Shown: piece after piece, positions 16,639 to 33,283 of the stretch
Layout: every line of letters starts with the position of its first letter
How positions within the stretch are numbered: the stretch's first letter is position 1
Origin: Verrucomicrobiota bacterium
Lineage (GTDB): Bacteria > Verrucomicrobiota > Verrucomicrobiia > Opitutales > Opitutaceae
Length of the DNA stretch: 46,981 bases
Reading direction: 5' to 3'
NCBI GenBank assembly: GCA_025361935.1
Contig: JANYJB010000085.1
Location: 1-46,981, forward strand
The notes under the pieces: generated by a model
Database searches by the model: none
What the model was told of the DNA's origin: nothing
The model's input: the letters and a program-made list of their open reading frames with translations, nothing else
Made by a program: the position numbers and the translations under genes

Positions 16639-16694
16639 ACAGCGATGGAAGAAGCAACATACACGACAGGCAAGACGTTGATGCGAAGGGAGGG

Positions 16695-17589: not shown

Positions 17590-18888
17590 ATGACGATTTA
17601 TGATTACGATGTGCTGGTGATTGGTGGCGGTCCCGCCGGGAGCAACGCTGCCTGGCGCACCCGTGGCGCGGGACTGAGCACGCTCGTCGTCGAGAAGGAC
17701 GCCTTTCCCCGTTTTCGCATCGGCGAGTCCCTGTTGCCCCACGGCAACGCCCTCCTCCGCGAAACCGGCGTGTGGCCCAAGATCGAGCGGGCCGGCTTCA
17801 TCGAAAAATACGGCGCCAGTTTCCATCTCTCCAACGGCGCGGCCGACAAGCACGTCGTCTTCTCGCAGGCTCTCGTCCCGGGCCTCGAAAAAACCTATCA
17901 GGTCGAGCGTGCAAAGTTCGACGCGCTCCTCCTCGACCACGCCCGCGAAGCTGGGGCTGAGGTCCACACGCAAACCATCGTCCGCGCCGTGACCGCCGAG
18001 GGCGAAGGCCACCGCGTCGCGCTGGAGACGACGACCGGCGGCACCGAGGTCACCGCCCGCTGGATCATCGACGCCAGCGGGCGGGATCAGTTTTTTCCGA
18101 GCGAAATCAAACGTGCGCTAGAGCCCGCGCGCACTCCCAAACGCATCGCGATTTACAACCACTTCCGCGGCGTGGCACGCGCCGCCGGTCCGGTCGGCGG
18201 AAACACCGTGGTCGTGCGCCTGCCGGACGGCTGGTTCTGGATCATCCCCATCGACGCGGAGCGCACGTCCGTCGGACTCGTCACCACCGTGGAGGCGATG
18301 CGCCAGACCCGTGCCGAACCGGCCGACCTCTTCCGCCAAACCGTCGCCGCTTCTCAGAAATTGAGCGAGCTGATGGCCGGGGCCTCGCCAGTCATGGATT
18401 TCCATGTGACGAGCGACTACAGCTATTTCCGGAAAAATCTGGCCGCTGACAACAGGGTGCTCGCAGGCGACGCGGGCGGTTTTTTCGACCCGATTTTTTC
18501 GTCGGGCGTTTATATGGCGACCTATTCCGCCAAGCTCGCCGCCGAACTCGTCGTGCGCGCCCACCGTGAAAAGCGCGCCATTACTCCCCGCGAAGGCCAC
18601 CGCTACTCCCGGCGCGTCAAAGCCCACGCAGGCGTCTTTCAGAAACTCATCACCGCGTTTTACGACAACGACAGCTTTGCCGTTTTCATGTGCCCGCAGC
18701 CGCCCATGAACCTCAGCCCGGCGATCACCGCCATCGTCGCCGGCCACGCGCGCCTCATCTGGCCGATCCGCTGGCGGTTCTACGTTTTCCTCCTCGTCTG
18801 CCGGTTGCAGCACCGCATCCCGCTGGTGCCGCGCATTGATTTCACCGGCATGGACGCCGTCGCCCCCCAACCCCTCGCCGCCCGATGA
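17590..18888 (+). CDS. FAD-dependent oxidoreductase of the flavin halogenase / geranylgeranyl reductase superfamily (1)
   Basis: 432 residues, first gene of the cluster. FAD-binding motif YDVLVIGGGPAGSNAA (residues 6-21), RFRIGESLLP after it, and GDAGGFFDPIFSSGV for the flavin ribityl region. It carries a Trp-x-Trp-x-Ile-Pro motif (W215-F-W217-I-I219-P220) and Lys73 in EKYGASF, the positions used by flavin-dependent halogenases to guide and hold hypohalous acid. Related oxidoreductases that do not halogenate also have parts of this pattern. Halogenation or oxidative tailoring of the aromatic head group is plausible; xanthomonadins are brominated and some flexirubins chlorinated. The stop overlaps the next start (ATGA). 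Confidence 0.85.
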   Translation: MTIYDYDVLVIGGGPAGSNAAWRTRGAGLSTLVVEKDAFPRFRIGESLLPHGNALLRETGVWPKIERAGFIEKYGASFHLSNGAADKHVVFSQALVPGLEKTYQVERAKFDALLLDHAREAGAEVHTQTIVRAVTAEGEGHRVALETTTGGTEVTARWIIDASGRDQFFPSEIKRALEPARTPKRIAIYNHFRGVARAAGPVGGNTVVVRLPDGWFWIIPIDAERTSVGLVTTVEAMRQTRAEPADLFRQTVAASQKLSELMAGASPVMDFHVTSDYSYFRKNLAADNRVLAGDAGGFFDPIFSSGVYMATYSAKLAAELVVRAHREKRAITPREGHRYSRRVKAHAGVFQKLITAFYDNDSFAVFMCPQPPMNLSPAITAIVAGHARLIWPIRWRFYVFLLVCRLQHRIPLVPRIDFTGMDAVAPQPLAAR

Positions 18889-20477
18889 ACGCCGATCCGG
18901 CCACATCCTCGCCCCCGTGGGATGTCATGATCGTCGGAGGCGCGCTTTCCGGCGCCGCCACCGCCTGCCTGCTCCTGCGCCGCAACCCCAAGCTGCGCAT
19001 CCTCATCCTCGAACGCAGCGGACACTTCAAACGCCGCGTCGGCGAATCCACCGTCGAGATCAGCTCCTATTTCCTCGGCCGCGTGCTCGACCTTACCGAG
19101 CACCTCCAAGAAAAACACCTCGTCAAACAGGGCCTCCGCTTCTGGTTCAAAAACGAGCATACCACCACGCTCGATCAGTGCAGCGAAACCGGCCCCGGCT
19201 ACAACGTCCGCCTGCCCGGCTATCAGGTGGACCGCTCTGTGCTCGACGAGGAAGTCCTCGCCCGCGCCGTCGCCGCCGGCGCCGTGCTCAAGCGTCCTGT
19301 CAACGTGCGCATCCTCGTGCTCGCGGCGGGCGGCCTGCAAACCGTGACGTGGGAAAACACTGACGGCCAAAGCGGCGTCGAGCAGGCGCGCTGGCTGGTG
19401 GACGCCTCCGGCGTGGCCGCACTTCTAGCCCGAAAAAACAACTGGCATACGCCCAACGCCGAGCACCCCATCGCCGCAGTCTGGAGCCGCTGGAGCGGCG
19501 TTAAAAACTGGGACTCCCGCGAGCTCGCCGAAAAATTCCCCGCGTGGGCGGCCCGCACCAAGGCCATTCGCTTCACCGCCACCAACCACCTCGTGGGACG
19601 CGGCTGGTGGGCGTGGTTCATCCCGTTGAAAGGCGGCGATGTGAGCATCGGCGTGGTGTTCGACCAACGCCTCGTCGATCTTCCGGAAGGCGACCGGCTG
19701 GGGCCGCGTTTGCAGGCGATGCTCATGGAGCACCCCGCCGCACGCGAACTCCTCGCCGGCGCCTCGTGGCACCCGGGCGACGTTCATTTCCGCCGTAATC
19801 TCGCCTACCGCTCGACGACGTTTGCGGGCGACGGCTTCGTGCTCGTGGGCGACGCCGCCGGGTTCATCGACCCGTTTTATTCGCCTGGCCTCGACTGGAT
19901 CAGCTACACGACGAGCGCGGCTTCCGCGCTGATTGACGGCTCCCTCCTCGGCAAGCCCAAGGCCCCGCGCATAGCCCGGCATAACCAATTTTTTTCCACC
20001 AGCTACGATCGCTGGTTCCGTGCGATCTACAAGGACAAGTATTTCTACATGGGCGACCACGAGCTCATGACCCTGTCCTTCCGCCTCGATCTCGGCCTCT
20101 ACTATTTCGGTGTAGTGTCTCAGCCCTTCAAGCACGGCCCGGGCGCGCTCGAAACCCCCTCGTTCTCGGGTCCGAGCACCCGTCTGCCCGCCAGCCTGAT
20201 TGCCTTCTACAACCGCCGCCTCGCCGCCATCGCGCACTCCCGCTGGAGACGCGGCACATGGGGCCGCAACAACACCGGCCGCCACTTCGGTTTTCGAAGC
20301 TACGAACTCACCGGTGCGCTCCCCTGGAGACTGCTGGCCGCCGTCGCCGCCTACCTCGCGCTCGAACTCCGCGAAGGCTGGCGCACCTGGCTGCCGTCCG
20401 CCCACCCCGTTAGCTCTGATCTTCCCAACCATGCCCAATCCTTCGCCTCAACCTCCCCCGTCGACGCCCACTCCTAA
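18885..20477 (+). CDS. FAD-dependent oxidoreductase of the flavin halogenase superfamily (2)
   Basis: 530 residues, starting in the ATGA overlap with the previous gene. FAD motif WDVMIVGGALSGAATA (residues 12-27), RRVGESTVEIS, and DAAGFIDPFYSPGLDWIS. It also has the halogenase-type motif W242-A-W244-F-I246-P247 and Lys81 in VKQGLRFWF. The second FAD Gly triad is GGALSG rather than GxGxxG, as in many halogenase relatives. It is about 100 residues longer than its neighbour at the C-terminus, with a helical Arg/Trp-rich extension. The two are homologues rather than a recent duplication (low identity by eye). The 3' end overlaps the ACP gene by 47 bases. Confidence 0.85.
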   Translation: MNADPATSSPPWDVMIVGGALSGAATACLLLRRNPKLRILILERSGHFKRRVGESTVEISSYFLGRVLDLTEHLQEKHLVKQGLRFWFKNEHTTTLDQCSETGPGYNVRLPGYQVDRSVLDEEVLARAVAAGAVLKRPVNVRILVLAAGGLQTVTWENTDGQSGVEQARWLVDASGVAALLARKNNWHTPNAEHPIAAVWSRWSGVKNWDSRELAEKFPAWAARTKAIRFTATNHLVGRGWWAWFIPLKGGDVSIGVVFDQRLVDLPEGDRLGPRLQAMLMEHPAARELLAGASWHPGDVHFRRNLAYRSTTFAGDGFVLVGDAAGFIDPFYSPGLDWISYTTSAASALIDGSLLGKPKAPRIARHNQFFSTSYDRWFRAIYKDKYFYMGDHELMTLSFRLDLGLYYFGVVSQPFKHGPGALETPSFSGPSTRLPASLIAFYNRRLAAIAHSRWRRGTWGRNNTGRHFGFRSYELTGALPWRLLAAVAAYLALELREGWRTWLPSAHPVSSDLPNHAQSFASTSPVDAHS

Positions 20478-20808
20478 TCCCCTCGCGAAGTTCCCCGCGA
20501 CCATCCGGGCCAGCCACGAACGCTTCCTCTCCACGCGCGATGTCGCCGCACTGGACGCCGTCGTGCTCGCAGTCGTCCTCGACCACCAGCCCGCCCACGC
20601 CAAAAAATCCGGCGAGATGATCGCGCCCGACACCGCGCGCCTTATCGCCGACCTCGGCTTCGACTCGCTCGCCCTCGCCGAAATCGTGTTCTTCCTCGAA
20701 GACCTCTACAAGGTCACCATCACCAACGAAGAGCTCATGCGCATAACCACCGTCGGAGAACTCCGCGCCTTCGTCCGCACCAAAGTCGCCGCCACCCGCG
20801 GCGCCTGA
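20431..20808 (+). CDS. Acyl carrier protein (1) with Pro-rich N-terminal extension
   Basis: 125 residues from ATG 20431, inside the 3' end of the upstream flavoprotein gene in another frame. After ~45 extra residues (Pro-rich, then ASHERFLSTRDVAALDAV) comes the carrier fold with the phosphopantetheine site LGFDSLALAEIVFFLED; the Ser carries the prosthetic arm. The length is above the usual 80 residues because of the N-terminal extension. It directly precedes a ketosynthase gene (4 bases), as in aryl polyene clusters with two carrier proteins. The start could be later, but no other Met occurs before the fold. Confidence 0.85.
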   Translation: MPNPSPQPPPSTPTPNPLAKFPATIRASHERFLSTRDVAALDAVVLAVVLDHQPAHAKKSGEMIAPDTARLIADLGFDSLALAEIVFFLEDLYKVTITNEELMRITTVGELRAFVRTKVAATRGA

Positions 20809-20812
20809 CCGT

Positions 20813-22138
20813 TTGCCCCGCGCCCCGCCGCCCGTGTCACGCGAAGCTCTCATCACCGGCCTCGGCTTCATCACCAGCATCGGCAACGACGCGGCCGCCG
20901 TCGTCGCCAGCCTCCGCGAGGGTCGCCACGGCATGGTGCCCTGGGACTACTGCGGCAACACCGCCGTCCCCATAAAAGTCGCCGCGCCCGTCCGCGACTT
21001 CGCGGTCGATTCGCCGAGCTGGCGCGACTGGACCTGGCCCGCCCGCTACTCCATCCCCCGCGAAACCCTGCGCGGACTCGCGCCCCACGGCGTTTACGCG
21101 TTTTGCGCGCTGGAACAGGCGCTCGCCGACGCCGGCCTCGCCCGCACCGATCTCACCGACGGCGGCACCGGGCTTTTCTGCGCCTCCGCCGGCTCCGCGT
21201 TCATGCTTCACCATCACCTCGCGCAGGCCCGCGCGAGCAACTACGAACGTGGCAACCCCATGGGCGTCGTCTCATCCATCGCCGGCACGCTCAATTTCAA
21301 CCTCGCCGCACACTACGGCATCACCGGTGCTGTCACCGGCTTCGTCTCCGCCTGCGCCTCGTCGAGCCACGCCCTCGGCTACGCCATGGATGAGATCCGC
21401 CTCGGCCGCCAGACGCGCATGATCGTGGTCGGCGCCGAGGAACTCAACGCCGACACCCTTCTTCCTTTCGCGCCGATGCGCGCTCTCTCGACGAACATCA
21501 ATCCCGCGACCGCTTCGCGACCATTCGACACCGCGCGCGACGGCTTTGTCGGCACCGGCGGCGCTGCCGTCATCATCGTCGAGGAAGCCTCGCTCGCCCG
21601 CAAACGCGGTGCGCGCGCCTACGCCGAACTCATCGGCTGGGGCCAGGCCTCCGACGGCCACAGCGTGGCCACCTCCCACCCCGACGGCGCCGGTCTGCAC
21701 GAAGCCATGCGCCGCGCCCTCCGCGACGCTGGCGTCACCCCGGCGCAGATCGACTACGTCAGCGCCCACGCCACCTCCACCCCCATCGGCGACCGCGCCG
21801 AGGCCCTCGCGTTGCGCGCCGTTTTCACCGCCACCGACGCGCATCCCGCCGTCAGTGGCACGAAGGGCCTCACCGGCCACGGCCTCTCGATGGCCGGCGC
21901 GATGGAAGCGGGCTTCTGCGCACTCGCCCTCCGCGACGGTTTCACCCCCGGCAATGCCCACTTGGTCAACGCGGACCCGGCCTGCGAAGGGTTGAACCTC
22001 CCCCGCGAAAGTCTGTCTGCCCGTCCCGCCCTCATTCTCAACAACAGCAGCGGCTTTGGCGGCAGCAACGTCTGCCATGTGTTGCGTCGAGCCGCCGTTA
22101 AAAAATCTTCTTCTCGGCCCAATTTGCACCATGCCTGA
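20813..22138 (+). CDS. Beta-ketoacyl-ACP synthase, FabF-like (1)
   Basis: About 441 residues from TTG 20813, four bases after the ACP stop; GTG 20834 is an alternative start and no ATG is available. The fold begins REALITGLGFITSIGN. The catalytic triad is complete: Cys in TGFVSACASSSHALGY, His in YVSAHATSTPIGDRAEA, and Lys/His in GTKGLTGHGLSMAGA. It condenses malonyl-ACP with the growing chain. The 3' end overlaps the second ACP start by eight bases (ATGCCTGA). Confidence 0.9.
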   Translation: MPRAPPPVSREALITGLGFITSIGNDAAAVVASLREGRHGMVPWDYCGNTAVPIKVAAPVRDFAVDSPSWRDWTWPARYSIPRETLRGLAPHGVYAFCALEQALADAGLARTDLTDGGTGLFCASAGSAFMLHHHLAQARASNYERGNPMGVVSSIAGTLNFNLAAHYGITGAVTGFVSACASSSHALGYAMDEIRLGRQTRMIVVGAEELNADTLLPFAPMRALSTNINPATASRPFDTARDGFVGTGGAAVIIVEEASLARKRGARAYAELIGWGQASDGHSVATSHPDGAGLHEAMRRALRDAGVTPAQIDYVSAHATSTPIGDRAEALALRAVFTATDAHPAVSGTKGLTGHGLSMAGAMEAGFCALALRDGFTPGNAHLVNADPACEGLNLPRESLSARPALILNNSSGFGGSNVCHVLRRAAVKKSSSRPNLHHA

Positions 22139-22406
22139 TCCGCTCATAGCCCAACTCAAAGTCCTCGTCGTCGAAACCCTCCGTCTCGAAGACGTGACCC
22201 CGGCGGAAATCCCCGACGACGAGCCTCTCATCGGCGGCGGCCTGAGCCTCGACTCCATCGACGCCCTCGAACTCGTCGTGCGCCTGGAAAAAGAATTCGG
22301 CATCAAGATCGCCAGCAGCGAGGAATCTCGCACCGCCCTCGCCAGCATCAAGACCCTCGCCGCCTTCATCCGCGAACGCGCCGATCCATCCCGCCTGCCC
22401 TCCTGA
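22131..22406 (+). CDS. Acyl carrier protein (2)
   Basis: 91 residues. Start ATG 22131 overlaps the ketosynthase stop. Phosphopantetheine site GGGLSLDSIDALELVVRLEK; the Ser in LDSID is the attachment residue and EKEFGIKI the typical following helix. Standard length. Aryl polyene systems use two carrier proteins, one for loading or starter and one for extension; which is which cannot be decided here. Confidence 0.9.
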   Translation: MPDPLIAQLKVLVVETLRLEDVTPAEIPDDEPLIGGGLSLDSIDALELVVRLEKEFGIKIASSEESRTALASIKTLAAFIRERADPSRLPS

Positions 22407-22437
22407 ACGCCATCCCGCGTCGGCCGATCCCCACGCC

Positions 22438-23547
22438 ATGAGCGCACCCCTCCCGTCCATCCGCCTCGCCGCCTGCGGCGGACTCACCGCTTTTGGCGAT
22501 GAATCCGCCACGCTCTCCGCGTTGCTTGAAGGACGTAGCGCACTCGCCGCCATGCCCGTGCTGGGTCGCGAAGGTGGCGACCCCGTGGCCCTCGCCCTCT
22601 GCGCAGGGCGCAGCTACGACGAAACCTCCCCGCCCAACTGGCTCCCCTGGGCGCGCCAACTCGCCTCCCGCATCCCCGGCGAAGGCTGGGGTTCTCCCCG
22701 CCGCCCGGTCTTCGTCACGAGCAGCAATTTCGGCGTAGGCAGCCTCTACGCGTTTCGCCGCACCGGCGACGTCTCGCATCTCGCCTACGGCACGCCCGCC
22801 ACTTGTGTTGACTGGCTCGCCGCCCAACTCGGCTGGGGTCCGAACATCACCACGTTTTCCCATGCCTGCGTCTCCGCGCACCTCGGGCTGCTGCAAGCCT
22901 CGCGTGTCCTCGCCGCCGGCCTCGCCGATGAAGCGCTCGTCTTCTCCTTCGATTTCCTCAGTCCGTTCGTCGCGGGCGGTTTTCACGCGCTCAAAATCCT
23001 CAACGCCGAGTTGCCCGCGCCCTATCAGGACCGCCCCACCGGCTCCATCGGCCTCGGTGACGGCGCCGCCTTCGCCGTGCTCACGCGCGACCGCGGCGAC
23101 TTCGTTCTCGCCGCCCAAAGCCTGCACAACGAGATGCACCACTTCACCGCCAACCGCGCCGACGGCGCCGGCTTCGAAGCGTGCCTCGCCCCGCTCCTCG
23201 CCGCGACCGGCGGACGCCGCCTCTGGCTCAAAGGCCACGGCACCGGCACCCTCGAAGCCGGCCGGCTCGAAGCCTCCACCCTCGCCCGCCATTTCCCCGG
23301 CGCGCCGCTCGTCTCCTGGAAAGGCAGCCTCGGCCACACGCTCGGCAGTTGCGGACTCGTGGAACTCTCGCTCGCCCTCGCTGCCATCCGCGCCGGTCGC
23401 GCGCCGGGCACGGTCGGCGGCACCGCGCCCGGCTTCACGCCCGAGGTCGCGTTCGCGCCCTTCGACCTCTCCGCCTTCGACAGCGTCCTCTGCACCAGCA
23501 ACGCCTTCGGGGGCGCCCACGCCGCCCTCCTCCTCTCCCATGCTTGA
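22438..23547 (+). CDS. Beta-ketoacyl-ACP synthase-like protein (2)
   Basis: 369 residues, shorter than FabF-type enzymes (about 410). It keeps Cys in FSHACVSAHLGLLQASRVLA, His in WLKGHGTGTLEAGRLEA and Lys/His in SWKGSLGHTLGSCGLVE, so it looks catalytically competent rather than a chain-length factor. The N-terminus is reduced. It starts 31 bases after ACP2 and overlaps the next gene by eight bases (ATGCTTGA). It is likely the partner ketosynthase of the cluster. Confidence 0.85.
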   Translation: MSAPLPSIRLAACGGLTAFGDESATLSALLEGRSALAAMPVLGREGGDPVALALCAGRSYDETSPPNWLPWARQLASRIPGEGWGSPRRPVFVTSSNFGVGSLYAFRRTGDVSHLAYGTPATCVDWLAAQLGWGPNITTFSHACVSAHLGLLQASRVLAAGLADEALVFSFDFLSPFVAGGFHALKILNAELPAPYQDRPTGSIGLGDGAAFAVLTRDRGDFVLAAQSLHNEMHHFTANRADGAGFEACLAPLLAATGGRRLWLKGHGTGTLEAGRLEASTLARHFPGAPLVSWKGSLGHTLGSCGLVELSLALAAIRAGRAPGTVGGTAPGFTPEVAFAPFDLSAFDSVLCTSNAFGGAHAALLLSHA

Positions 23548-24196
23548 ACGCTGGATCACCGCCCTGCACACCGAAGACGCCGGCACCGAGGAAACGTCCG
23601 CCACCCGCGAGCGTTTGAAAGAACGTTTTCCGCGCGGCGCGACCCGCCGCATGACCCAGCTCGGCATGCTCCTCGGCGTCACGCTGGAACCGCTTGGTCT
23701 CAACGAAGACGACACCGTGGTTTACGCCTCCGGCTACGCCGAGACCCGCGCGCTTGAAGGCTACCTCGACAGCTTTCCCTCTGCGAGCCCCACGCTGTTC
23801 CAAACCTCGATTCACCCGAGCGCCGTCCAACAGGCGCTGATTCTCCGCCAGCAGCCCGTGCGTCAGTTTTTTCCCATGACCGGCCGCGCGTGCCTACCCG
23901 CCCAAGCCCTCCAGGTCGCCCTGCTTGCCGAAACCCCTCGCGCCATCCTTTGCGGCGGCGAGGAACGCGGCACCTGGCTCCTCGAAAAAGGCACCGCCAG
24001 CGACCGCTCATTCGCCTTCGCGCTCGCCCTCTCCACCTCGCCGGCGAGCGCCGTCGGTCGTCTCACGCTCTCGTCTTCCGAGATCAACGCATCCGCCAGC
24101 CTCACGTTGCCCGCTTTCTTCGATCTCCTCCACGCCCGCCAGCCCTTCGACGCGCCGATTTCCCCTTCGCGGCGACTCACCCTCACGTGGTCATGA
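23540..24196 (+). CDS. Short ketosynthase N-terminal-like protein (Ketoacyl-synt_2 / chain length factor type)
   Basis: 218 residues from ATG 23540 (the frame is open far upstream but that overlaps the previous gene). RRMTQLGMLLGVTLEPLGL, VVYASGYAETRALEGYLDSF, then SPTLFQTSIHPSAVQQALIL resemble the PF13723 proteins of aryl polyene clusters, where a half-length ketosynthase pairs with a full one. No active-site Cys is evident in the expected place. The role is therefore probably structural or chain-length control. Assignment is by pattern, without alignment. It overlaps the next gene by ATGA. Confidence 0.7.
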   Translation: MLERWITALHTEDAGTEETSATRERLKERFPRGATRRMTQLGMLLGVTLEPLGLNEDDTVVYASGYAETRALEGYLDSFPSASPTLFQTSIHPSAVQQALILRQQPVRQFFPMTGRACLPAQALQVALLAETPRAILCGGEERGTWLLEKGTASDRSFAFALALSTSPASAVGRLTLSSSEINASASLTLPAFFDLLHARQPFDAPISPSRRLTLTWS

Positions 24197-25847: not shown

Positions 25848-26614
25848 CGCCCTCCTCCACCCACCTCGTGCTTATCCCAAGCTACAACACCGGCGCACGA
25901 CTCCTGCCCACGGTCGAGGAAGCCCTTCGTCATTGGCAACCCGTCTGGATAGTGATCGACGGCAGCACCGACGGCAGCGAAAAAAATCTCGCCGCCCTCG
26001 CCGCCCGCGAGCCTCAACTCCGCATCATCCGCCGCCCGAGCAACGGCGGCAAAGGCGCCGCCGTCCTCACCGGCACCGAAGCCGCCCTCGCCGCCGGCTT
26101 CACCCACCTCCTCGTGATGGACTCGGACGGCCAACACCCCGTCACGCGCGTCTCCTCCTTCATGGCCGCCTCGCAAAACTCGCCCGCCGCCCTCGTCCTC
26201 GGCCTGCCGGTCTTCGGGCTCGAGGTTCCCCTCGAGCGCCTGCACGGACGCAAACTCAGCGTCGGCCTCGTCCACTTTGAAACCTTCAGCGACACGCTCA
26301 TCGGCGACCCTCTCTTCGGCTTCCGCGTCTATCCCGCCGAGCTTCTCCGCCGCGCCCTCTCGCAAACCCGCGCCGCCCGCGGCTTCGACTTCGACCCCGA
26401 GATCGTCGTGCGCATGGTCTGGGCCGGCGTGCCCACGCTCAACATCCCTGCGCCCTGCCGTTATCTCTCCAAAGCCGACGGCGGCGTCTCCCATTTCCAC
26501 TACCTCCGCGACAACGTCAAAATGGTCTGGCTGCATACCCGCCTCATCACGCAACTGTTACTTTGGCGCTGGCCCGCTGTCCGTCGTTTAAACAAACGCC
26601 CACGCCATGATTAA
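25844..26614 (+). CDS. Family 2 glycosyltransferase
   Basis: 256 residues, start in an ATGA overlap. GT-A fold: LVLIPSYNTGARLLPTVEEAL, IDGSTDGSEKNL, RPSNGGKGAAVLTG and the metal/nucleotide-binding MDSDGQH. No membrane span apart from a weak C-terminal hydrophobic patch. It resembles dolichyl-phosphate mannosyltransferase-like enzymes and probably adds a sugar during assembly of the pigment lipid. It overlaps the next gene by eight bases. Confidence 0.88.
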   Translation: MTPSSTHLVLIPSYNTGARLLPTVEEALRHWQPVWIVIDGSTDGSEKNLAALAAREPQLRIIRRPSNGGKGAAVLTGTEAALAAGFTHLLVMDSDGQHPVTRVSSFMAASQNSPAALVLGLPVFGLEVPLERLHGRKLSVGLVHFETFSDTLIGDPLFGFRVYPAELLRRALSQTRAARGFDFDPEIVVRMVWAGVPTLNIPAPCRYLSKADGGVSHFHYLRDNVKMVWLHTRLITQLLLWRWPAVRRLNKRPRHD

Positions 26615-27272
26615 CCGCCTTCTGCTCCTTGGTTTCTCCCTCACGCTCGCCGCGCTTCCTCTGCGTGCCGAGTTGCCCCCGTCGCTCATCGCGCCCGCCT
26701 ACCAACTCGTGCCCGGCCAAAACGACGCCGCCTGGCAACCGCTCCTCGCCGCCCTCAAGGCCAAGAGCCCTATCCTGGCCACCTTCAAGGAACGCCGCTT
26801 CTTCCCCTTCAAAAAAAATCCCGTCGTGCTCACCGGCGAGATCCGCCTCGACCCCGCGCTCGGCCTCAGCCTCCACTATCAAGTCCCCGAAGAACGCATC
26901 CTCGTCGTTGATGATCGCGGCGGTTTCATGCGCAACGGCAAAGGCCAGCGCCTTCACGATCTCCCCGACGACCCCCGCGCCCAGGCCGCCACCCGCGCCC
27001 TCCTCCACGTCATGCGTTTCGAGCTGGGTGAACTCGCCCGGGATTTCTCCGTCTACGCCGCCCGCGACGGCGCCGACTGGCGCTTTGCCTTCGTCCCCTT
27101 GCCCGGCCCGCTCGCCAACGTCCTCCAACCCATCACTGTCACCGGCCAAGACGAACTCGTGCGCACCCTCGAAATGAAAAAATCCGCCGCCGAGCGCGTC
27201 TTCATCCAGATCGGCGAAACCCGCACCCATGTGACCTTCAACTCCACCGAGCTCACCCGCTTCTTCCGCTAA
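26607..27272 (+). CDS. LolA-like outer-membrane lipoprotein carrier protein
   Basis: 221 residues. Signal peptide MINRLLLLGFSLTLAALPLRA, then a periplasmic beta-rich domain: ILATFKERRFFPFKKNPVVL, GEIRLDPALGLSLHYQ and a second half ending THVTFNSTELTRFFR. LolA-like proteins are a constant part of aryl polyene and flexirubin clusters and are thought to ferry the hydrophobic product across the periplasm. Assignment by fold pattern and context. Confidence 0.8.
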   Translation: MINRLLLLGFSLTLAALPLRAELPPSLIAPAYQLVPGQNDAAWQPLLAALKAKSPILATFKERRFFPFKKNPVVLTGEIRLDPALGLSLHYQVPEERILVVDDRGGFMRNGKGQRLHDLPDDPRAQAATRALLHVMRFELGELARDFSVYAARDGADWRFAFVPLPGPLANVLQPITVTGQDELVRTLEMKKSAAERVFIQIGETRTHVTFNSTELTRFFR

Positions 27273-27284
27273 GCCTCCGCCCGC

Positions 27285-29633
27285 ATGACCCCCGATCACC
27301 AAACCAGCATCGCCCGCGTCCTCCTCCTCTTTTTCGCGGTGACGGGTCTGTCGTGGCTTTCGGGCCTCAACTTCTCCGAAAAAATATCCACCAACGTCGC
27401 CGACCTCATCCCCACCGACGAACGCTCTCCCGAAATCTCCCTCCTCCGCTCCCTCGCCGACGAACGCCAGGCCCGCGTCCTCCTCTTCGCGCTCAACGCC
27501 CCCGCTTCGTCCGCCACCCCGCCTGACGCCGCCGCTACCCTCTTCGCAGCCACCCTCCGCCAGTCCCCGCTCTTCACAGAAGTCGCCCCGCTCCGCGACA
27601 CCGCCTCGCACGACGCCCTCGGCCGTTTCATCTACGAGCGCCGCCTCGACCTGCTGCTCCCCACCTGGCTCGCCACCCAGAAAAAAGCCTACGCCACCAC
27701 CGGCCGCCCAGCTTCCGACTACACTGCCTGGCTCGCCCAAAAAACCGTCCAGTCCCTTGACGCCTTCCTCGCCCAGCCCGAAGCCTCCGCCTTCCAAGCC
27801 CTCGTAAAAAGCGACCCTCTTCTCCTCGTCCCGACCCTCGCGCAACAATCCCAATCGCTCGCGCCCTCCACCTCCGCCGCCACCGGCCAAGCCCTCGTCT
27901 GGGCGCGGTTGTCCGTCTCCCCGCTCGCCGACGAAGGCCAGGACCCCGTCTTCGCCGTGATTGACCAAGCCCTCTCCACCGTTCGTCTCGCGCACCCCGG
28001 CGTCACCTTGGAATGGTCGGGCGTCAACCGCTTCGCCGCCGACAGCAAACACCGTATCCGCGCCGAACTGTCGTGGCTCAACACCCTTTCGCTCCTCGCC
28101 GTCCTCGCCATCGCGCTCCTCTTCGTCCGCCAAGTCTGGAAAGCCCTGCACCTCGTCCCTGTCATCCTGTTCGCCATTCTCGGCGGCTGGGTCGCGGTCA
28201 CTCTGTTTTTCACGCACGTCCACATCCTCGTCTTCGTCCTTGGCGCGCTCCTCGCCGGCGTCGCCATCGACTACGGTTTTTATCTCTACCTCCAGCCGCC
28301 GCTCCGCCCCGGCGAGCCCTATCGCGAAAAACTCGACCGCCTCCTCAAGCCCCTCCTCACGAGCTGCCTCACCACTGTCATCGGTTTTTCATTTCTCCTC
28401 TTGTCCGAACTCCCGCTCATCCGCCAGCTCGGCGTCTTCGTCAGCGCCGGACTCCTGAGCGCGCTTGCCGCCGCGATCTTTTACTTCGCACAAATCAAAA
28501 ACCCGTTTCTCCAAGCCCGCGTCCTCTCCCTCCCGAAAACCCCCACGCCCGCCAGCCGCCGCCTCGTCCGCGCCCTCGGCCTCCTCGCCCTCGCCGTCGC
28601 CCTCACCGGCCCGTGGTTCCTCAAGTGGCACGACGACATCCACCAGCTCGACGTGCCCAACCCCGCGCTCGTCACCAACGACCAGCGCCTCCGCACCCTC
28701 TTCGGCGACACCGAGGGCCGCTCGATCTACATCACCCGCGCCGATTCCCTCGTCGCCGCCCGCGACCGCCTCGCCGCCTTCCAAACGTGGCACGACCACG
28801 CTTTCCCCGGCGCCGCCCTCGCCAGCGTCGGCCTGATTCTCCCCACCGAAACCGATTATCTCGCCCAACCCGCCCGCCTCGCCGCCCTCCAAGATTTCGA
28901 ACCCCGCCTCCGCGCCGCCCTCGATCAAAACGGCTATACCCCCGACTCCTTCGCCCCCTTCTTCCAAGCCTGGCGCCAACACCTCTCCGTTCTCTCAACT
29001 CTCAGCCCTCAACTCTCAACTTCAGCCTACACCTCCCTCGGCGCCGATCTCCAAGCCCGCCTCACCGGCCCGCTCGGCATGCTCTTCTTCACCGGCGGCA
29101 AACAAGTCTGGTTCCTTTCCCTCGCCGATCACCCGCCCGCCGTCCAGCCGCCCGCCGACCTCGGCACCGTCGGCACCGACCAGCTCCAGACCCTCAACAC
29201 CCTTTTCTCCCGCTACCGCGCCAGCGCCCTCCGCCTCAGCCTCTGCGGACTCGGCCTCATCGGCCTCAGCGTGTTCGTCCTCTACGGCCTTCGCCGTGGC
29301 CTGCGCATTTTCATGATCCCGTCCGGCGCGTGCTTCCTCGCCTTCGGCCTGCTCGGCCTCACCGGCCACACCCTCAACCTCTTCCATCTCCTCGGCGCCT
29401 TCCTCGGCGTGTGCCTGAGCCACAACTACGCGATCTTCTCCGCCGAAAACGCCGGCCGCGGCGAACCTCCGCCCATCTCCATCCGCCTCTCCGCCCTCTG
29501 CACCGCCGCGTCCTTCGGCGTGCTCGCACTCAGCCACATCCCCGTCGTCGCCGCCTTGGGCTCGACTGTCGCCCTCATCGTGCTCACCGCCCTCATCATG
29601 GTTGAACTGGAACCGCTGAGCCGAAAAAACTGA
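27285..29633 (+). CDS. MMPL/RND-superfamily exporter
   Basis: 782 residues with about 12 membrane spans in two halves: an N-terminal span, a large periplasmic domain (residues ~35-255), spans with LVFVLGALLAGVAIDYGFYLY, a second periplasmic domain and a terminal bundle with LFHLLGAFLGVCLSHNYAIF. This is the pigment-cluster type of hydrophobe exporter that loads LolA-like carriers. Start ATG 27285 lies 12 bases after the LolA-like gene. A tandem heptanucleotide repeat (28993-29020) lies in the second periplasmic domain, encoding LSTLSPQLSTS. Confidence 0.88.
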   Translation: MTPDHQTSIARVLLLFFAVTGLSWLSGLNFSEKISTNVADLIPTDERSPEISLLRSLADERQARVLLFALNAPASSATPPDAAATLFAATLRQSPLFTEVAPLRDTASHDALGRFIYERRLDLLLPTWLATQKKAYATTGRPASDYTAWLAQKTVQSLDAFLAQPEASAFQALVKSDPLLLVPTLAQQSQSLAPSTSAATGQALVWARLSVSPLADEGQDPVFAVIDQALSTVRLAHPGVTLEWSGVNRFAADSKHRIRAELSWLNTLSLLAVLAIALLFVRQVWKALHLVPVILFAILGGWVAVTLFFTHVHILVFVLGALLAGVAIDYGFYLYLQPPLRPGEPYREKLDRLLKPLLTSCLTTVIGFSFLLLSELPLIRQLGVFVSAGLLSALAAAIFYFAQIKNPFLQARVLSLPKTPTPASRRLVRALGLLALAVALTGPWFLKWHDDIHQLDVPNPALVTNDQRLRTLFGDTEGRSIYITRADSLVAARDRLAAFQTWHDHAFPGAALASVGLILPTETDYLAQPARLAALQDFEPRLRAALDQNGYTPDSFAPFFQAWRQHLSVLSTLSPQLSTSAYTSLGADLQARLTGPLGMLFFTGGKQVWFLSLADHPPAVQPPADLGTVGTDQLQTLNTLFSRYRASALRLSLCGLGLIGLSVFVLYGLRRGLRIFMIPSGACFLAFGLLGLTGHTLNLFHLLGAFLGVCLSHNYAIFSAENAGRGEPPPISIRLSALCTAASFGVLALSHIPVVAALGSTVALIVLTALIMVELEPLSRKN
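28993..29020 (+). repeat. Tandem heptanucleotide repeat inside the exporter gene
   Basis: Four consecutive 7-base units: TCTCAAC, TCTCAGC, CCTCAAC, TCTCAAC, followed by TTCAGCC. Each differs from TCTCAAC by at most one base. The surrounding gene is GC-rich, so the block stands out. A unit of seven is not a multiple of three, so gain or loss of one copy would shift the frame. Confidence 0.8.
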
Positions 29634-29638
29634 CCCGC

Positions 29639-30955
29639 ATGGCCACCACGTTGACCGCCACCTGGGCCGCCTTGGTCCACGCCCATCCCGACGCCATCGC
29701 CCTCGTCGAAGCCGCCAACGCCCGCTCGTGGACACGCGCCGAACTCAACGCCCACGCCGAGAAATGGCGCGCCGGCCTCCCTGCTTCTGTCATCGGCCGC
29801 CGCGTAACCTTCGCCCTGCCCAACGGCCCTGATTGGTTCGCCGCCTTCCTGGGACTGCTCCTCGCCGACGCCGTCCCCGCTCCCCTCGATTCCTCCGAAC
29901 CCGCCTCCGCGCAACGCACCCTCGCCCTCGCCGCAGGCGCCGCCTTCGCCTGGATCGACGGCCGCCTCGAATCCGTCCAAAGTAACCCAATAGGTTACTT
30001 TGATCCGGCGACCTGCCTTGTAAAACTCACCTCCGGCAGCACCGGCCGCCCGCACGCCCTCGCGTTCACGCATGCGCAGATGCTCGCCGACGGTCGCCAA
30101 GTCTGCGCCACCATGGGCATCACACCCGACGATCTTAACTTCGCCGTCATCCCCTTCGGCCACTCCTACGGCCTCGGCAACCTCGTCGTTCCCCTCCTCG
30201 CCCAAGGCACCGCCATCGTCTGCGCCGGCGTGCCGCTGCCCCACGCCCTCGCCGCCGACATCGCCCGCTGGAAACCCACCGTGTTCCCCGCCGTGCCCGC
30301 CCTCTTGCGCGTTCTCGCCTCCGCCGATCTTCCAGCCAACGCCCTCGCACCACTACGCACCATCATCTCCGCCGGCGCCCCGCTTTCCCCCGAAATAGCC
30401 CAAGCCTTTCACGCCCAATTCTCGCTCACGCCGCACAGCTTCTACGGCTCCAGCGAAACAGGTGGCGTCACCTACGACCGCTCCGGCGAAGCCACCCTCG
30501 CCGGCCACAGCGTCGGCACCCCGCTCGACGGCGTCACCCTCGCGCCGATCTGCGGCCGACGCATCCGTGTGACCAGCCCCGCCGTTTTCCAACGCGGCTC
30601 CTTCAGCCCCGCCGACCAAGCCTCCCTCAACGCCTGCGGCGAACTCGTCCTCCTCGGGCGCACCGGTCGCCTCGTCAAAATCGCTGGCCGCCGCCTCGAC
30701 CTCGCCGACCTGGAGCACACTCTCCGCGCCCTCCCCGACATCCGCGACGCCTTCGTCGTGCCCCACCCGCAAACCCCCGAAGAACTCGCCGCCGTCATCG
30801 CCACGTCCCTCCGCCCCGACGCACTAAAAACCCTCCTGCGCACTCGGCTCGCCTCCTGGAAAATGCCCCGACGGCTCGTGATCATCGCCGAGTTTCCCCT
30901 CACCGCGCGCGGCAAGCCCGACACCCGCGCACTCCGCGCCTTGCTCGCCTGTTAA
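29639..30955 (+). CDS. AMP-forming acyl/aryl-activating enzyme (adenylation domain)
   Basis: 438 residues, shorter than typical acyl-CoA synthetases (500-600), as in the ligases of aryl polyene clusters. Core motifs: LVKLTSGSTGRPHALAFTH (A3, with His where Lys is usual), VIPFGHSYGLGN, FYGSSETGG (A5), ELVLLGRTGRLVKIAGRRLD (A7-A8) and the catalytic Lys in LTARGKPDTRAL (A10). It probably activates hydroxybenzoate and loads it onto an ACP. It starts five bases after the exporter stop. A perfect 25-base palindrome is embedded at 29978-30002. Confidence 0.85.
   Translation: MATTLTATWAALVHAHPDAIALVEAANARSWTRAELNAHAEKWRAGLPASVIGRRVTFALPNGPDWFAAFLGLLLADAVPAPLDSSEPASAQRTLALAAGAAFAWIDGRLESVQSNPIGYFDPATCLVKLTSGSTGRPHALAFTHAQMLADGRQVCATMGITPDDLNFAVIPFGHSYGLGNLVVPLLAQGTAIVCAGVPLPHALAADIARWKPTVFPAVPALLRVLASADLPANALAPLRTIISAGAPLSPEIAQAFHAQFSLTPHSFYGSSETGGVTYDRSGEATLAGHSVGTPLDGVTLAPICGRRIRVTSPAVFQRGSFSPADQASLNACGELVLLGRTGRLVKIAGRRLDLADLEHTLRALPDIRDAFVVPHPQTPEELAAVIATSLRPDALKTLLRTRLASWKMPRRLVIIAEFPLTARGKPDTRALRALLAC
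29978..30002. repeat. Perfect 10-bp inverted repeat within the adenylating-enzyme gene
   Basis: CAAAGTAACC (29978-29987), loop CAATA, GGTTACTTTG (29993-30002). It is markedly AT-richer than the flanking codons and encodes the unusual stretch QSNPIGYF just before the A3 motif. It may be an inserted palindromic element, an internal regulatory site or chance. Confidence 0.85.
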
Positions 30956-30964
30956 CATCATCCG

Positions 30965-32342
30965 GTGAAAAGCCCCGATTTTCATCCGTTCTTCCCCGCC
31001 CCAAAGCCCATTTCTGGCTCAAGCACTGGGGCCCCTGGATCGGCATTACCGGCTTTTTCGTTCTCTACTTTGCAGTTCTCAACCATCCGGTTTTCCGCGT
31101 CACCACGATGCCACTCAGCATCGTTGACCGCTGGATTGGGTTTCAACCCGCTCTCTCGTTCTCTACGTCTCGCTCTGGCTCTACGTGCCACTTCTGCCCG
31201 CACTCATCACGGACCGCCGCGAACTCCTCCGCTACGCCCTCGCGGCCTTCGCGCTGAGCGTGATCGGGCTCTCGATTTTCATCCTCTGGCCGACGACCAT
31301 CCTCCGCCCCGACATTGATTGGTCTCAGTATCCCTCGCTCGGGTTTCTCAAAACCATCGCCGCCACCGGCAACGCCTGCCCGTCTCTCCACGTCGCGTTC
31401 ACCGTCTTCACCGCGCTGGGATTTGAACGCCTGCTCCGCCAACTCCGCGCGGGCCTGCTCATACGCACGGGCAACTTTCTGTGGGGCACCGAGATCGTTT
31501 ACTCGACCCTCGCCACCAAACAACATCTCGCGATCAACGCCCTATCCGGCGCCCTCCTCGGAACCGCCGTGGCCGGCGCGTGTTTTTCCCGCCGTCCGCT
31601 CTTCAGCGTCGCCATCATCACGAAGGTTGCCGCCGTGGTCCTTTGGCTCTCGGGCCTGCCGCTCCCGTGGGCCGTCGTGTTGTTTGTGAGCATGGATGCC
31701 GTGGTGCTCTACCATCTGTTCACGCCCAATTCCCAGGGGCTCCGCCGCGTCTTCACGCACTTCCAAACCGACCAGCCCGAAATCTGGCTGACCATAGATG
31801 ACGGGCCCGACACCCCGCGCCTCCTCGACCTGCTTGATCGCCACCACGCCAAGGCCACCTTCTTTCTCATCGGCGAAAACGCCGCCCGTCACCCCGGACT
31901 GGTCGTCGAAATCCAACGACGCGGCCACGAAATAGGCCACCACACGCAGACTCATTCGCTGGCCGGATTTTGGTGCGCGTCGCCCAATCGCCTCCGGCGC
32001 GAACTCGACGAGCCCCTTGTCGTGCTGTCAAAAGCGGCCGTGCGCCCGCAACCCTTTCTCGCCCCCGCCGGCATCAAAAACCTCTTCCTCGGCGGCGCGC
32101 TTACCGCCCGCAATCTTGCCTGCATCGGCTGGAGCCTGCGCAGCGGCGACTCGCTCGCCCGCGATCCGCAAGTCGTCGTAAATCGCATCATGAAACGCCT
32201 TTATACCGGCGCCATCGTCCTGCTGCACGAAGGCCAAAAACTCGACGTCCGCGTGCGTGTCGAAGCGATTTCCCTGCTACTTGATGCCCTCGCGAAACGC
32301 GGCTTCCGCTGCATCGTGCCCGCTCAAGAGCGGCTGCGTTAG
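30965..32342 (+). pseudogene. PAP2-type phosphatase / polysaccharide deacetylase fusion with two apparent frameshifts
   Basis: The 3' part (open from GTG 31185) reads LLPALITDRRELLRYA, membrane spans, GNACPSLHVAF and TLATKQHLAINALSG of a PAP2/Aur1-like domain (the usual Asp after the His is Asn), then a NodB-type deacetylase domain: IWLTIDDGPDTP, HEIGHHTQTHS, PFLAPAGIK and VLLHEG. The N-terminus continues upstream in another frame as LPRPKAHFWLKHWGPWIG... to DRWIGFQPALS (about 30985-31157), and the likely start GTG 30965 (M-K-S) is in a third frame. One extra base in the CCCC run near 30974 and one near 31158 would give a single ~459-residue protein. Either the gene is broken or the sequence has two indel errors. 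It is the last plus-strand gene of the cluster; its stop overlaps the convergent chorismatase stop. Confidence 0.75.
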
Positions 32343-33283
32343 CCCACTGCCACTAGAGTGGCCTCGATCTCTATCGTTAACGCCGCGCGGCAGATGTCGC
32401 TGCGCAGCCACGTCACCTTATCCCCCGGTAGAAACAGCCGGTCCGCCAACGCCAACGCCGCCGCTTCGTAATCCGCCGCATGCCGTAGATACACTTTGAA
32501 ATGCCGCTCCCAACCGCCACCCGCGCCGAGGTGGTCGCCCAACCCGCAGGCCCGCGCAATCAGACGCAGATTGTCCAGCGTGCAGTCGATCTGCCCAGCC
32601 AGATCATTGGGCGCGATGGTCGCGTGACCCTTGATCGCGGCCGTCCCCGAAATAAAAATCCATGGACGCCCATCACCCTCCACGCGCGTCGCCCGCGAAA
32701 AACTCGGCGACCGCGGACCATGCTCCGCCGGATATTCGTAGGCCGGCACCTGCTGGGGATTTTCGAAATGGAGCGGCGGCGGCGTCGTAGCCGCAAAAAT
32801 CACCGCCAGCATCTCATCCGGACCGCCCACCCCGGAGGCCGAAGGCATGTGCTGCTCGCAGGCCTTCCCGCGAGCCTCTTCAAACGCCCGCGCACGCCCT
32901 GCGCAAAACGCCCGGTAATTTTCCATACCCTCGGCCGACAGCGCGTTGATTTTTGGAACGTAGTTCCAGATGCGCACCAAGTGCCGCCCCTGCGCGACGC
33001 GCAGCAACCGCCCGTAAAGCCTCCGTGTTTGCCCGGCCAGATCCGCTTCCGCCGGCTCGACCACCGCCCCGATCAAAAAATCCCCCTGCTGAAACAGCTG
33101 AAACCCTTCGCCCAATCCCACGCATTGAGCGCCGCGAAAAAGCGTCTCACTCGCTTCGCCCGCCAGCACCGGAATGGAAACCGCCAGAGTATCCGCCGAT
33201 GATCGAATTCCAAAAAACTTCACCTCAAAACCGCTCGTAGAAGCGGAAGCCGCCGCGATTGGCGAATGAGATGAGCGGTTCAT
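32339..33283 (-). CDS. Chorismatase (FkbO / Hyg5 / XanB2 family)
   Basis: 314 residues from the Met at 33283 (frame open to 33316). VRIWNYVPKINALSAEGMEN, YRAFCAGRARAFEE, PSASGVGGPDE, NPQQVPAYEYP and a C-terminal RidA-like half (WIFISGTAAIKGHATIAPND, QIDCTLDNLRLI, FKVYLRH, WLRSDICRAALTIEIEAT) are the chorismatase pattern. The family hydrolyses chorismate to 3-hydroxybenzoate, 4-hydroxybenzoate or a dihydroxycyclohexadiene carboxylate. Xanthomonas XanB2 supplies 3-hydroxybenzoate for xanthomonadin, so here it most likely makes the aryl starter for the neighbouring cluster. It is convergent with the cluster, overlapping the last stop by three bases. Confidence 0.85.
   Translation of the reverse strand: MNRSSHSPIAAASASTSGFEVKFFGIRSSADTLAVSIPVLAGEASETLFRGAQCVGLGEGFQLFQQGDFLIGAVVEPAEADLAGQTRRLYGRLLRVAQGRHLVRIWNYVPKINALSAEGMENYRAFCAGRARAFEEARGKACEQHMPSASGVGGPDEMLAVIFAATTPPPLHFENPQQVPAYEYPAEHGPRSPSFSRATRVEGDGRPWIFISGTAAIKGHATIAPNDLAGQIDCTLDNLRLIARACGLGDHLGAGGGWERHFKVYLRHAADYEAAALALADRLFLPGDKVTWLRSDICRAALTIEIEATLVAVG

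Follow-up and report, generated by a model that had tools for sequence, protein, structure and literature searches.

A polyene cannot form without a reductase and a dehydratase. Which enzymes, then, would carry out these steps for a gene cluster of the aryl polyene (APE) kind that encodes neither? The question is raised by a stretch of 46,981 nucleotides (the window) from a bacterium that an earlier, sequence-only reading had taken for a probable Verrucomicrobium; it is a verrucomicrobium, but of the family Opitutaceae (order Opitutales) and not of that genus. In the window, 14 close-packed genes occupy positions 17590-32342 of the plus strand and converge on a chorismatase gene at 32339-33316 of the minus strand, and all 15 were found where that reading had placed them. 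Together with a neighboring exchanger gene, the features are:

17590-18888, plus strand: f1, FAD enzyme, flavin halogenase-like (PF04820, 102.8 bits)
18885-20477, plus strand: f2, second FAD enzyme, halogenase-like paralogue (PF04820, 53.4 bits)
20431-20808, plus strand: acpA, acyl carrier protein with an N-terminal extension (PF00550)
20813-22138, plus strand: ksA, ApeR-like ketosynthase (both ketosynthase domains, PF00109/PF02801)
22131-22406, plus strand: acpB, acyl carrier protein, ApeE counterpart (PF00550)
22438-23547, plus strand: ksB, elongating ketosynthase, ApeO counterpart (Ketoacyl-synt_C)
23540-24196, plus strand: ksn, short ketosynthase-like protein, chain-length factor and ApeC counterpart (PDB profile, fold)
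24193-25107, plus strand: LpxL-like acyltransferase (family profile)
25104-25847, plus strand: PlsC-type acyltransferase, ApeD counterpart (PF01553)
25844-26614, plus strand: family 2 glycosyltransferase (GT2), corresponding to the GT2 part of ApeJ (PF00535)
26607-27272, plus strand: LolA-like carrier, ApeL counterpart (family profile)
27285-29633, plus strand: MMPL/RND exporter, ApeM counterpart (PF03176)
29639-30955, plus strand: AMP-forming ligase, ApeH/ArcT counterpart (PF00501/PF13193)
30965-32342, plus strand: PAP2-polysaccharide deacetylase fusion gene, frame broken (PF01522, PF01569)
32339-33316, minus strand: chorismatase (PF21168, chorismatase N-domain, 81 bits, over the cut-off)
33355-34659, plus strand: Na+/H+ exchanger (PF00999)

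At eight of the 13 plus-strand junctions the genes overlap, by 4-47 bases, and nowhere are they separated by more than 31 bases, in agreement with the earlier description of mostly overlapping genes. The PAP2-deacetylase does carry both of its predicted domains, but it is split over two frames near 31125-31150 and has no single intact ORF in the present assembly; the remaining ORFs of the cluster are open. The LpxL-like, LolA-like and short ketosynthase-like genes had no Pfam match of their own and were identified through family profiles and fold. The first in-frame ATG of the chorismatase lies at 33283.

All 14 genes were matched in named APE-type clusters (E. coli, Azospirillum or Roseomonas), the weakest matches being those of acpA to E. 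coli ApeF (20.5 bits) and of ksn to E. coli ApeC (23 bits). With family profiles, the GT2 protein scored 212-359 bits, the PlsC-type acyltransferase 156-195 bits, the MMPL exporter 140-220 bits and the ligase 73-110 bits against the reference clusters; the LolA-like carrier matched the LolA-like proteins of three of them (40-71 bits), and the PAP2-deacetylase the deacetylases of two (154-155 bits). The LpxL-like profile matched a Roseomonas protein with PF03279, an Azospirillum relative and E. coli ApeJ. Among solved structures, the best relatives of f1 were ChlB4 and CmlS, with PltA lower in the list, and those of f2 were 3e1t, radH and CmlS. The f1 profile matched an Azospirillum FAD enzyme and a Roseomonas "tryptophan 7-halogenase" with 317 and 311 bits, respectively, and the f2 profile matched the same two proteins with 216 and 201 bits; judged by sequence, f1 and f2 are the counterparts of the halogenase-like flavin gene of xanthomonadin-type clusters. 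The Na+/H+ exchanger (152 bits to a Roseomonas cation:proton antiporter) recurs in 6 of the 40 loci of relatives, among them the three fetched from the same genus, and is probably an accessory cluster member, as in the arcuflavin and Roseomonas clusters. Overall, genes for lipid attachment and LolA/MMPL export, dedicated carrier proteins and a putative aryl-activating ligase place the cluster among the APE type, while the predicted halogenase-like enzyme and a chorismatase adjoining the ligase and ketosynthase (KS) genes tie it to xanthomonadin and arcuflavin.

The core of this assignment is the KS pair. ksB, in which the Cys-His-His residues are readable, had 7f28_B and 6qsp_A as best solved relatives and scored 86-110 bits against the APE KS of three reference clusters. 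The only PDB chains matched by the ksn profile were 6qsp_B and 7f28_A, and the best fold match of the ksn model was 6qsp_B, titled chain length factor ApeC. ksB and ksn thus pair with the two partners in the solved APE complexes of KS and chain-length factor (CLF), 6qsp and 7f28, and homology and modeled fold place them with KS-CLF heterodimers of the ApeO/ApeC kind. Moreover, acpB matched E. coli ApeE (85 bits, 49%) and ksA matched E. coli ApeR (209.9 bits).

That these are ordinary genes of fatty acid or lipid synthesis is suggested by ksA, which resembled FabF/FabB when searched against Pfam, NCBIfam and the PDB. We reject this explanation, whose probability we consider negligible, because ksB and ksn match the 6qsp/7f28 partner chains. 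In addition, the genome has a separate fabG-acp-fabF run on contig C68, and ksB is patchily distributed: among 200 Opitutaceae genomes, ksB was found in 65 (match threshold E < 1e-60) and the chorismatase in 64. The two genes are tied to each other, with both present in 59 genomes, ksB alone in 6, the chorismatase alone in 5 and neither in 130; the chorismatase was present in all 17 full named clusters. Conservation of ksB in 65 genomes of the family at this threshold excludes chance, and its identity to the window was 56-89% in the 40 loci read. Neither of the outcomes held to be damaging to the sequence-only reading, namely KS/ACP genes of ordinary fatty acid synthesis or a lack of co-occurrence in relatives, was therefore observed, and its proposal of a cluster of the APE/xanthomonadin type that includes a chorismatase is borne out as far as sequence comparison goes.

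The chorismatase matched 5ag3 with an E value of 1.7e-40, and its Glu316 aligns with the catalytic Glu of Hyg5, its Gly224 and Cys309 with the Gly/Cys pair of that enzyme; its score against TIGR04444 (188.8 bits) was under the NCBIfam cut-off of 325. In an unrooted tree with 26 proteobacterial and 4 other sequences, from which XanB2 and ArcB were left out, the Opitutaceae chorismatases formed a separate clade and did not group with the proteobacterial pigment chorismatases. In the bacterium's own genome, which is 88% complete, a search for aromatic ammonia-lyases (PF00221) gave no match. This agrees with the proposed supply of the starter from chorismate and not from an ammonia-lyase, although the feed from chorismatase to ligase is inferred. 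The likeness to flexirubin clusters that had also been proposed is unsupported, as no such lyase was found, and Pfam scans of 40 ORFs of the window showed no darA/darB dialkylresorcinol genes.

Among known systems, the arcuflavin clusters of Azoarcus sp. BH72, compared through their published gene table and not by direct sequence comparison, share the XanB2-type chorismatase ArcB, the ligase ArcT, the halogenase-like ArcA, the KS ArcK, the N-terminal KS-domain protein ArcJ, a glycosyltransferase, acyltransferases, LolA, an exporter, a deacetylase and the Na+/H+ antiporter ArcG (PMC3949708). They also contain the reductase ArcH and the dehydratases ArcI and ArcS, none of which occurs in the Opitutaceae cluster, and Azoarcus has a dialkylresorcinol cluster as well (PMC3949708). 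The plasmid-borne xanthomonadin-type clusters of Azospirillum ramasamyi and Roseomonas haemaphysalidis share the FAD enzyme, GT2, acyltransferases, LolA, MMPL, ligase, deacetylase, KS, CLF and ACP, with an antiporter in Roseomonas; unlike the window, they include reductases named FabG and genes resembling dehydratases, whereas the stretches read have no annotated chorismatase and no genes that are best matched by the acpA and ksA profiles as a pair. From apeA-R of E. coli CFT073, the window has counterparts of ApeC, D, E, F (weak), H, L, M, O and R, and ApeJ corresponds to two separate genes; the E. coli 4-hydroxybenzoate starter comes from UbiC.

The full APE parts list that the sequence-only reading had seen here is, however, not present, a point which that reading missed. 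Neither an ApeQ-type ketoreductase nor the dehydratases ApeI and ApeP were found in the window, nor any counterpart of ApeB, G, K or N. All three enzymes were likewise absent from the 17 full named verrucomicrobial clusters (ketoreductase threshold, 300 bits), whereas at least one was present in each of 37 long proteobacterial loci. Lowering the ketoreductase threshold to 150 bits recovered none in 40 Opitutaceae loci. Among the 65 ksB-bearing genomes, ApeI exceeded the Pfam cut-off once (by 0.1 bit, in a 481-residue frame) and ApeP never. In eight loci from other families of the order, an ApeI-like dehydratase was found inside the cluster in five and an ApeP-like one in three, with a ketoreductase in none; in those families reduction seems to be needed, yet to be done in trans.

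Such losses might reflect a decaying pigment cluster whose function is gone, as would the broken PAP2-deacetylase frame and the one stop codon inside the chorismatase match of a same-genus genome (G190). We regard this as very unlikely: the other cluster ORFs of the window are open, ksB is 56-89% identical to that of the window in the 40 loci read, and the form lacking both ketoreductase (300 bits) and dehydratase was seen in all 22 named verrucomicrobial loci carrying ksB. The lack could also mean a changed product, namely an aryl polyketide left unreduced or reduced only in part, which the same machinery would anchor to a lipid and export. The near-absence of ApeI and ApeP from the ksB-bearing genomes fits this, as does the failure to recognize an APE-type reductase in the clusters or in the sampled genomes; FabG, moreover, was nearly inactive in place of ApeQ in a published Acinetobacter in vitro assay. 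We nevertheless hold a non-polyene product to be improbable, as the KS-CLF, export and attachment genes are closest to those of polyene clusters and some loci of the other families keep dehydratases in reductase-free clusters. Opitutales strain ASA1 (Congregicoccus parvus), which has the same cluster type, also speaks for a polyene, as it forms whitish yellow colonies that later turn slightly yellow (PMC10927696, PMC12193912).

With no such enzymes in the cluster and none of the APE type recognized elsewhere, the reductive steps would therefore be done in trans. The closest matches to the missing enzymes found in the genomes were FabG and an LpxC-FabZ fusion, and these housekeeping enzymes may act on carriers that they accept. 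This version, which takes part of the probability of the in trans reading, has somewhat less than an even chance. Against it stand the Acinetobacter result and the reductases themselves, which in the bacterium's own genome and in ten sampled cluster-bearing relatives were plain FabG of the FabG clade keeping the FabG-type Phe; the position of ApeQ Leu185 was Phe in 10 of 10 sampled cluster-bearing genomes. In Lysobacter, a published ketoreductase mutant lost its pigment.

A second locus, with an ACP-dehydratase fusion and a KS, is family-wide (181 of 200 genomes) and does not track the cluster. In most relatives it also has a short-chain dehydrogenase/reductase (SDR) and a thioesterase; the three loci read from the window's own genus lack the SDR. 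Its ACP resembles acpA (43% over 49 residues, E 2e-12), and its KS is a paralogue of ksA (59%). Tentatively, and with rather low probability, we propose a split system in which the operon provides starter, KS-CLF and export, this locus provides the reductive loop, acpA-ksA were copied from it as a docking adaptor, and loss was stepwise (the reductase in the order, the dehydratases in the family).

We consider it probable that this Opitutaceae locus is an operon for an aryl polyene pigment, fed from chorismate and lacking its own reductive enzymes. Chorismate would be converted by the chorismatase to a hydroxybenzoate, most likely 3-hydroxybenzoate, which the ligase would activate and load onto acpB. 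The putative ksB-ksn complex, aided by ksA and acpA, would extend this starter with malonyl units, and each keto group would be reduced and dehydrated in trans to yield the polyene. For the dehydratase, our first guess is the ACP-dehydratase/KS locus, given the resemblance of its ACP to acpA and of its KS to ksA; reduction may fall to FabG or another SDR. By analogy, f1 and f2 may halogenate or hydroxylate the ring, the LpxL-, PlsC- and GT2-type enzymes may join the acid to a lipid anchor, and the LolA-like and MMPL proteins may bring the product to the outer membrane. The wide occurrence of the second locus and the lack of its SDR in the window's genus, the published results on FabG and on the Lysobacter mutant, the plain FabG of the sampled genomes, the chorismatase score under the NCBIfam cut-off and the incompleteness of the genome count against this reading.

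The ASA1 cluster was already known as an antiSMASH "Arylpolyene" region (5,402,678-5,443,805; PMC10927696, PMC12193912), inside which ksB of the genome taken to be this strain (G013) lies at 5,422,702; in the portions of these two papers available, the region is an antiSMASH listing and neither its genes nor the missing enzymes are discussed. What is new is the proposed chorismate-fed variant that would borrow its reductive steps, together with a separate chorismatase branch tied to pigment clusters in Verrucomicrobiota. Many Opitutaceae keep the cluster without enzymes thought to be dedicated to it, including a reductase thought not to be replaceable by FabG. The identity of the reducing enzyme would reveal how parts are shared among type II polyketide systems and would test that non-replaceability.

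The window is contig C58 of its genome assembly (2.48 Mb, 115 contigs, 88% complete), and its genes were taken from ORF lists and their translations. All of the genes named in the sequence-only reading were found there by Pfam and family profiles. The following features were observed:

6710-11512: a protein of 1600 residues that has passenger-associated repeats and carries a PEP-CTERM motif
16045-17438, minus strand: a sigma factor of the ECF type and a membrane protein with a VTT domain, immediately upstream of the cluster
17590-32342, plus strand: 14 genes, overlapping at 8 of the 13 junctions, with gaps all of at most 31 bases
31125-31150, plus strand: the region near which two frames of the PAP2-deacetylase meet, one encoding its N-terminal membrane part and the other the rest
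32339-33316, convergent: the chorismatase ORF, overlapping the last plus-strand gene by 4 bases

The frame split could be either an artefact of assembly or a genuine disruption; PAP2-deacetylase matches in relatives score high (384 bits in L176 and 404 bits in L205). The sigma factor and VTT-domain protein pair was also observed upstream of the cluster in the nearest relative (L036). A promoter scan was at chance (2 found versus 1.3 expected), and terminator-like sites, mostly located within genes, numbered 22 versus 12.7 in shuffled sequences (sd 3.5).

Family profiles, based on the window sequence plus as many as 40 relatives, were searched against the proteins of three named clusters: apeA-R of E. 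coli CFT073 (gene names as in the gene table of PMC8253772) and those carried on plasmids by Azospirillum ramasamyi and by Roseomonas haemaphysalidis. Counterparts were identified for all 14 genes as well as the antiporter, the weakest being the E. coli matches of acpA (20.5 bits) and ksn (23.0 bits). No protein of the three clusters corresponded to the chorismatase. The decisive point for cluster identity is the pair formed by a ketosynthase and its chain length factor. The best solved relatives of the ketosynthase ksB were 7f28_B and 6qsp_A, and the ksn profile retrieved only 6qsp_B and 7f28_A from the PDB at E <= 1. Moreover, the ksn model (mean pLDDT 81.8) had 6qsp_B as its best fold match (E 2.2e-11, TM 0.65, rmsd 6.2), from an entry entitled 'Ketosynthase (ApeO) in Complex with its Chain Length Factor (ApeC)'. 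Since ksB and ksn match these aryl polyene structures, the cluster does not correspond to fatty acid synthesis. The genes fabG, acp and fabF stand in a row elsewhere, on contig C68. Both flavin enzymes, f1 and f2, were nearest to flavin halogenases and contain a readable WxWxIP motif, which we take to be typical of that class. Halogenation should not be assumed, because arcuflavin is described in PMC3949708 as nonbrominated, though its cluster has a halogenase-like gene.

Some ksB match was present in 176 of 200 genomes of the family, most of them FabF-like at about 28% identity; counted at E < 1e-60, ksB was present in 65, and the chorismatase in 64 (E <= 1e-20). The two were found together in 59 genomes, ksB alone in 6, the chorismatase alone in 5, and neither in 130 (Fisher p = 1.7e-37, a value that overstates independence as the genomes are related). 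Together with the KS-CLF structures, this co-occurrence in 59 genomes bears out the original claim of an aryl polyene/xanthomonadin-type pigment cluster with its own chorismatase: the finding was confirmed, and its main interpretation is correct. The surroundings of ksB were compared in 40 family loci, in stretches of 8-20 kb that contig ends truncated in some cases. The ligase was found in 27 and the chorismatase in 25, with both in 25 and neither in 13; the chorismatase and ligase therefore travel together. In the same loci, ksA was present in 25, f1 and f2 in 12 each, and the antiporter in 6, so that f1, f2 and the antiporter are optional. Several arrangements were observed in passing: a protein resembling (by eye) a B12-binding radical SAM enzyme, its gene lying downstream of MMPL in L050, L054, L055 and L056; a UbiE-like methyltransferase upstream in other relatives; and ksB, ksn and a LolA-like match separated from the remaining cluster in three genomes of genus g8 (L044, L047 and L048), with ksA and the chorismatase on other contigs in G007 and G183.

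When named genomes were scanned with the GT2 alignment, the best 80 matches comprised 27 loci classed as verrucomicrobial from their titles or gene content and 53 from Proteobacteria. The closest among the matches listed was a Verrucomicrobia MAG with 90% GT2 identity, which is the genome G190 already represented among the 40 family loci; other named loci may overlap too. Named relatives among the matches listed include Opitutus, Lacunisphaera, Oleiharenicola, Ereboglobus and Opitutaceae MAGs. In a sample of the phylum, ksB was found at E <= 1e-40 in 21 of 387 genomes, all of the same order.

No ORF of at least 50 residues in the window was matched by ApeQ-, ApeP- or ApeI-type profiles at E <= 0.01. 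Among the 80 best GT2 matches, 17 verrucomicrobial loci had the full core (ksB, ksn, lpxL, gt2, mmpl and amp). All 17 contained the chorismatase. With thresholds of 300 bits for the ketoreductase (KR) and 25 bits for ApeP- and ApeI-like dehydratases, none of these enzymes was found in any of the 17; downstream in L186, one of the 17, lies a 91-bit SDR. In the proteobacterial loci longer than 20 kb (n = 37), the KR was found in 30, an ApeP-like gene in 27 and at least one of the three enzymes in all 37; the 4 proteobacterial loci out of 53 with none of the three were all shorter ones. KR-profile matches in the 40 family loci did not exceed 118 bits and occurred in 4 loci. With only 91-118 bits, the SDRs that lie close to L044, L047 and L048 (reduced loci) and downstream in L075 were rejected as the KR. 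A single family locus, L057 (G158), kept ApeI-like (53 bits) and ApeP-like (29 bits) genes. When the whole genomes of the 65 ksB carriers were searched, an ApeI-like match exceeded the Pfam cut-off in one (28.6 versus 28.5 bits, in a 481-residue frame) and an ApeP-like match in none; weaker matches were nearly all in frames of at least 440 residues, which in the window's own genome, as read by eye, is an LpxC-FabZ fusion. Eight loci of the order came from outside the family; in these, the cluster contained an ApeI-like gene in 5, an ApeP-like gene in 3, the chorismatase in 6 and the KR in none. Set side by side, the loci form a series: throughout the order, the clusters sampled lack the reductase, and nearly all those of the family also lack the dehydratases.

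Contig C12 of the window's own genome was seen by eye to carry OleA/OleB-like genes beside FabI-like, FabZ and carotenoid-desaturase-like genes (L090:1604-6415 and L091:239-2120) and, further along, a ketosynthase with an ACP, perhaps belonging to another hydrocarbon or lipid pathway; the FabZ, FabI-like and OleA-like genes were set aside on that ground.

With the KR of the Azospirillum cluster as query, a match at E <= 1e-40 was found in 188 of 200 genomes, usually one and at most two (among the matches listed, identities of 42-49% and up to 196.5 bits); the 65 ksB genomes had one match in 56 cases, two in 6 and none in 3. However, a true aryl polyene reductase (G005) scored 196.5 bits and FabG up to 195, and this single query therefore cannot separate the two. 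A three-sequence KR profile and a tree did separate them in the 21 genomes on which they were run. The profile gave 329-394 bits for 40 proteobacterial cluster KRs, 335 and 309 bits for the KRs of different aryl polyene clusters in G005 and G053, and 238-252 bits for 20 FabG proteins (one from the window's own genome, 10 from cluster-bearing genomes and 9 from others). In the tree, these 20 FabG formed one group (100/100), separate from the cluster KRs. A FabF-like ketosynthase adjoined FabG in 9/9 of the cluster-bearing genomes compared (of ten sampled). The closest reductase is thus the housekeeping one in the genomes sampled.

An adapted FabG in the cluster-bearing genomes was considered and rejected, as Phe was kept at the position of ApeQ Leu185 in all 10, a residue also found in 9 of the 10 other genomes sampled; the exception, in G005, is not FabG but the 335-bit reductase of the different aryl polyene cluster. 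According to PMC8041823, L185F lowered ApeQ output. The cluster of G005 and G053 (L278 and L279, one genus of the family), with its own KR and an accompanying ApeP-like dehydratase (54 bits in G005; likewise in G053), served as a positive control for the reductase search. Near-identical fabG copies were observed on contigs C8 and C68 (L096 and L093), one at a contig end, and would point to either a duplication of recent date or an assembly that mixes strains. The C8 copy was rejected as a dedicated reductase: it is by eye nearly identical to that of C68 and is therefore not a separate enzyme class.

A second locus, outside the pigment cluster, encodes a fusion of an ACP with a FabA-like dehydratase (e.g., L127:6941-7963) and a ketosynthase 59% identical to ksA; among the matches compared, the best for acpA was the ACP part of this fusion. 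These likenesses suggest common descent of the two ACP-ketosynthase pairs and make the dehydratase a candidate for a step performed in trans. Of the 200 family genomes, 181 contain the fusion, both cluster-bearing and cluster-free ones, so co-occurrence neither supports nor excludes such a role. As an obvious home of the missing enzymes the locus was rejected, given this uninformative spread and an SDR far below FabG: the SDR following the ketosynthase in 15 of 20 loci scored 29-69 bits against the ApeQ profile, versus 238-252 bits for FabG, and the KR profile detected no SDR in the three second loci of the window's genus (L127-L129). A thioesterase-like gene was present in 11 of the 20, and glycosyltransferases were often seen there too (L127-L146). 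In the window's genome, the end of contig C52 carries the ketosynthase and the dehydratase portion.

The chorismatase matched Hyg5- and FkbO-type structures, its Glu316, Gly224 and Cys309 aligning with Glu334, Gly240 and Cys327 of 5ag3; subfamily residues are those given in PMC7170507, and the offset of nine from 5ag3 to Hyg5 numbering is a step of our own. Position 162 is Gly in the window, but Ala occupies it in 45 of 52 aligned sequences. Opitutaceae chorismatases, including those of L178 and L180, formed one clade (100/99), and 26 from proteobacterial pigment loci another (100/96). The product is only likely to be 3-hydroxybenzoate, because the reaction of a chorismatase is not predictable from sequence alone, as stated in PMC3949708. 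The nearest relative, L036 (G190), has one stop codon inside its chorismatase match, which may indicate a broken gene or a match running past the start.

Aryl polyene regions in Verrucomicrobiota are already known: two have been described in turtle-ant Opitutales (PMC8277422), one in the soil isolate ASA1, Congregicoccus parvus (PMC10927696; PMC12193912), and, in an abstract, one in Oceaniferula flavus. The cluster of G013, inferred to be the ASA1 genome, falls within the ASA1 antiSMASH aryl polyene region. Among the titles and abstract openings retrieved in literature searches on these clusters and on pigment chorismatases, none describes a chorismatase or missing reductive enzymes for verrucomicrobial aryl polyene clusters.

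The interesting part of the finding is the absence of reductive genes from the cluster. This absence matters: in published work, most core gene deletions were colourless in E. coli (PMC8253772), purified Acinetobacter FabG in place of ApeQ gave almost no aryl polyene (PMC8041823), and a Lysobacter KR mutant lost its pigment (PMC3691225).
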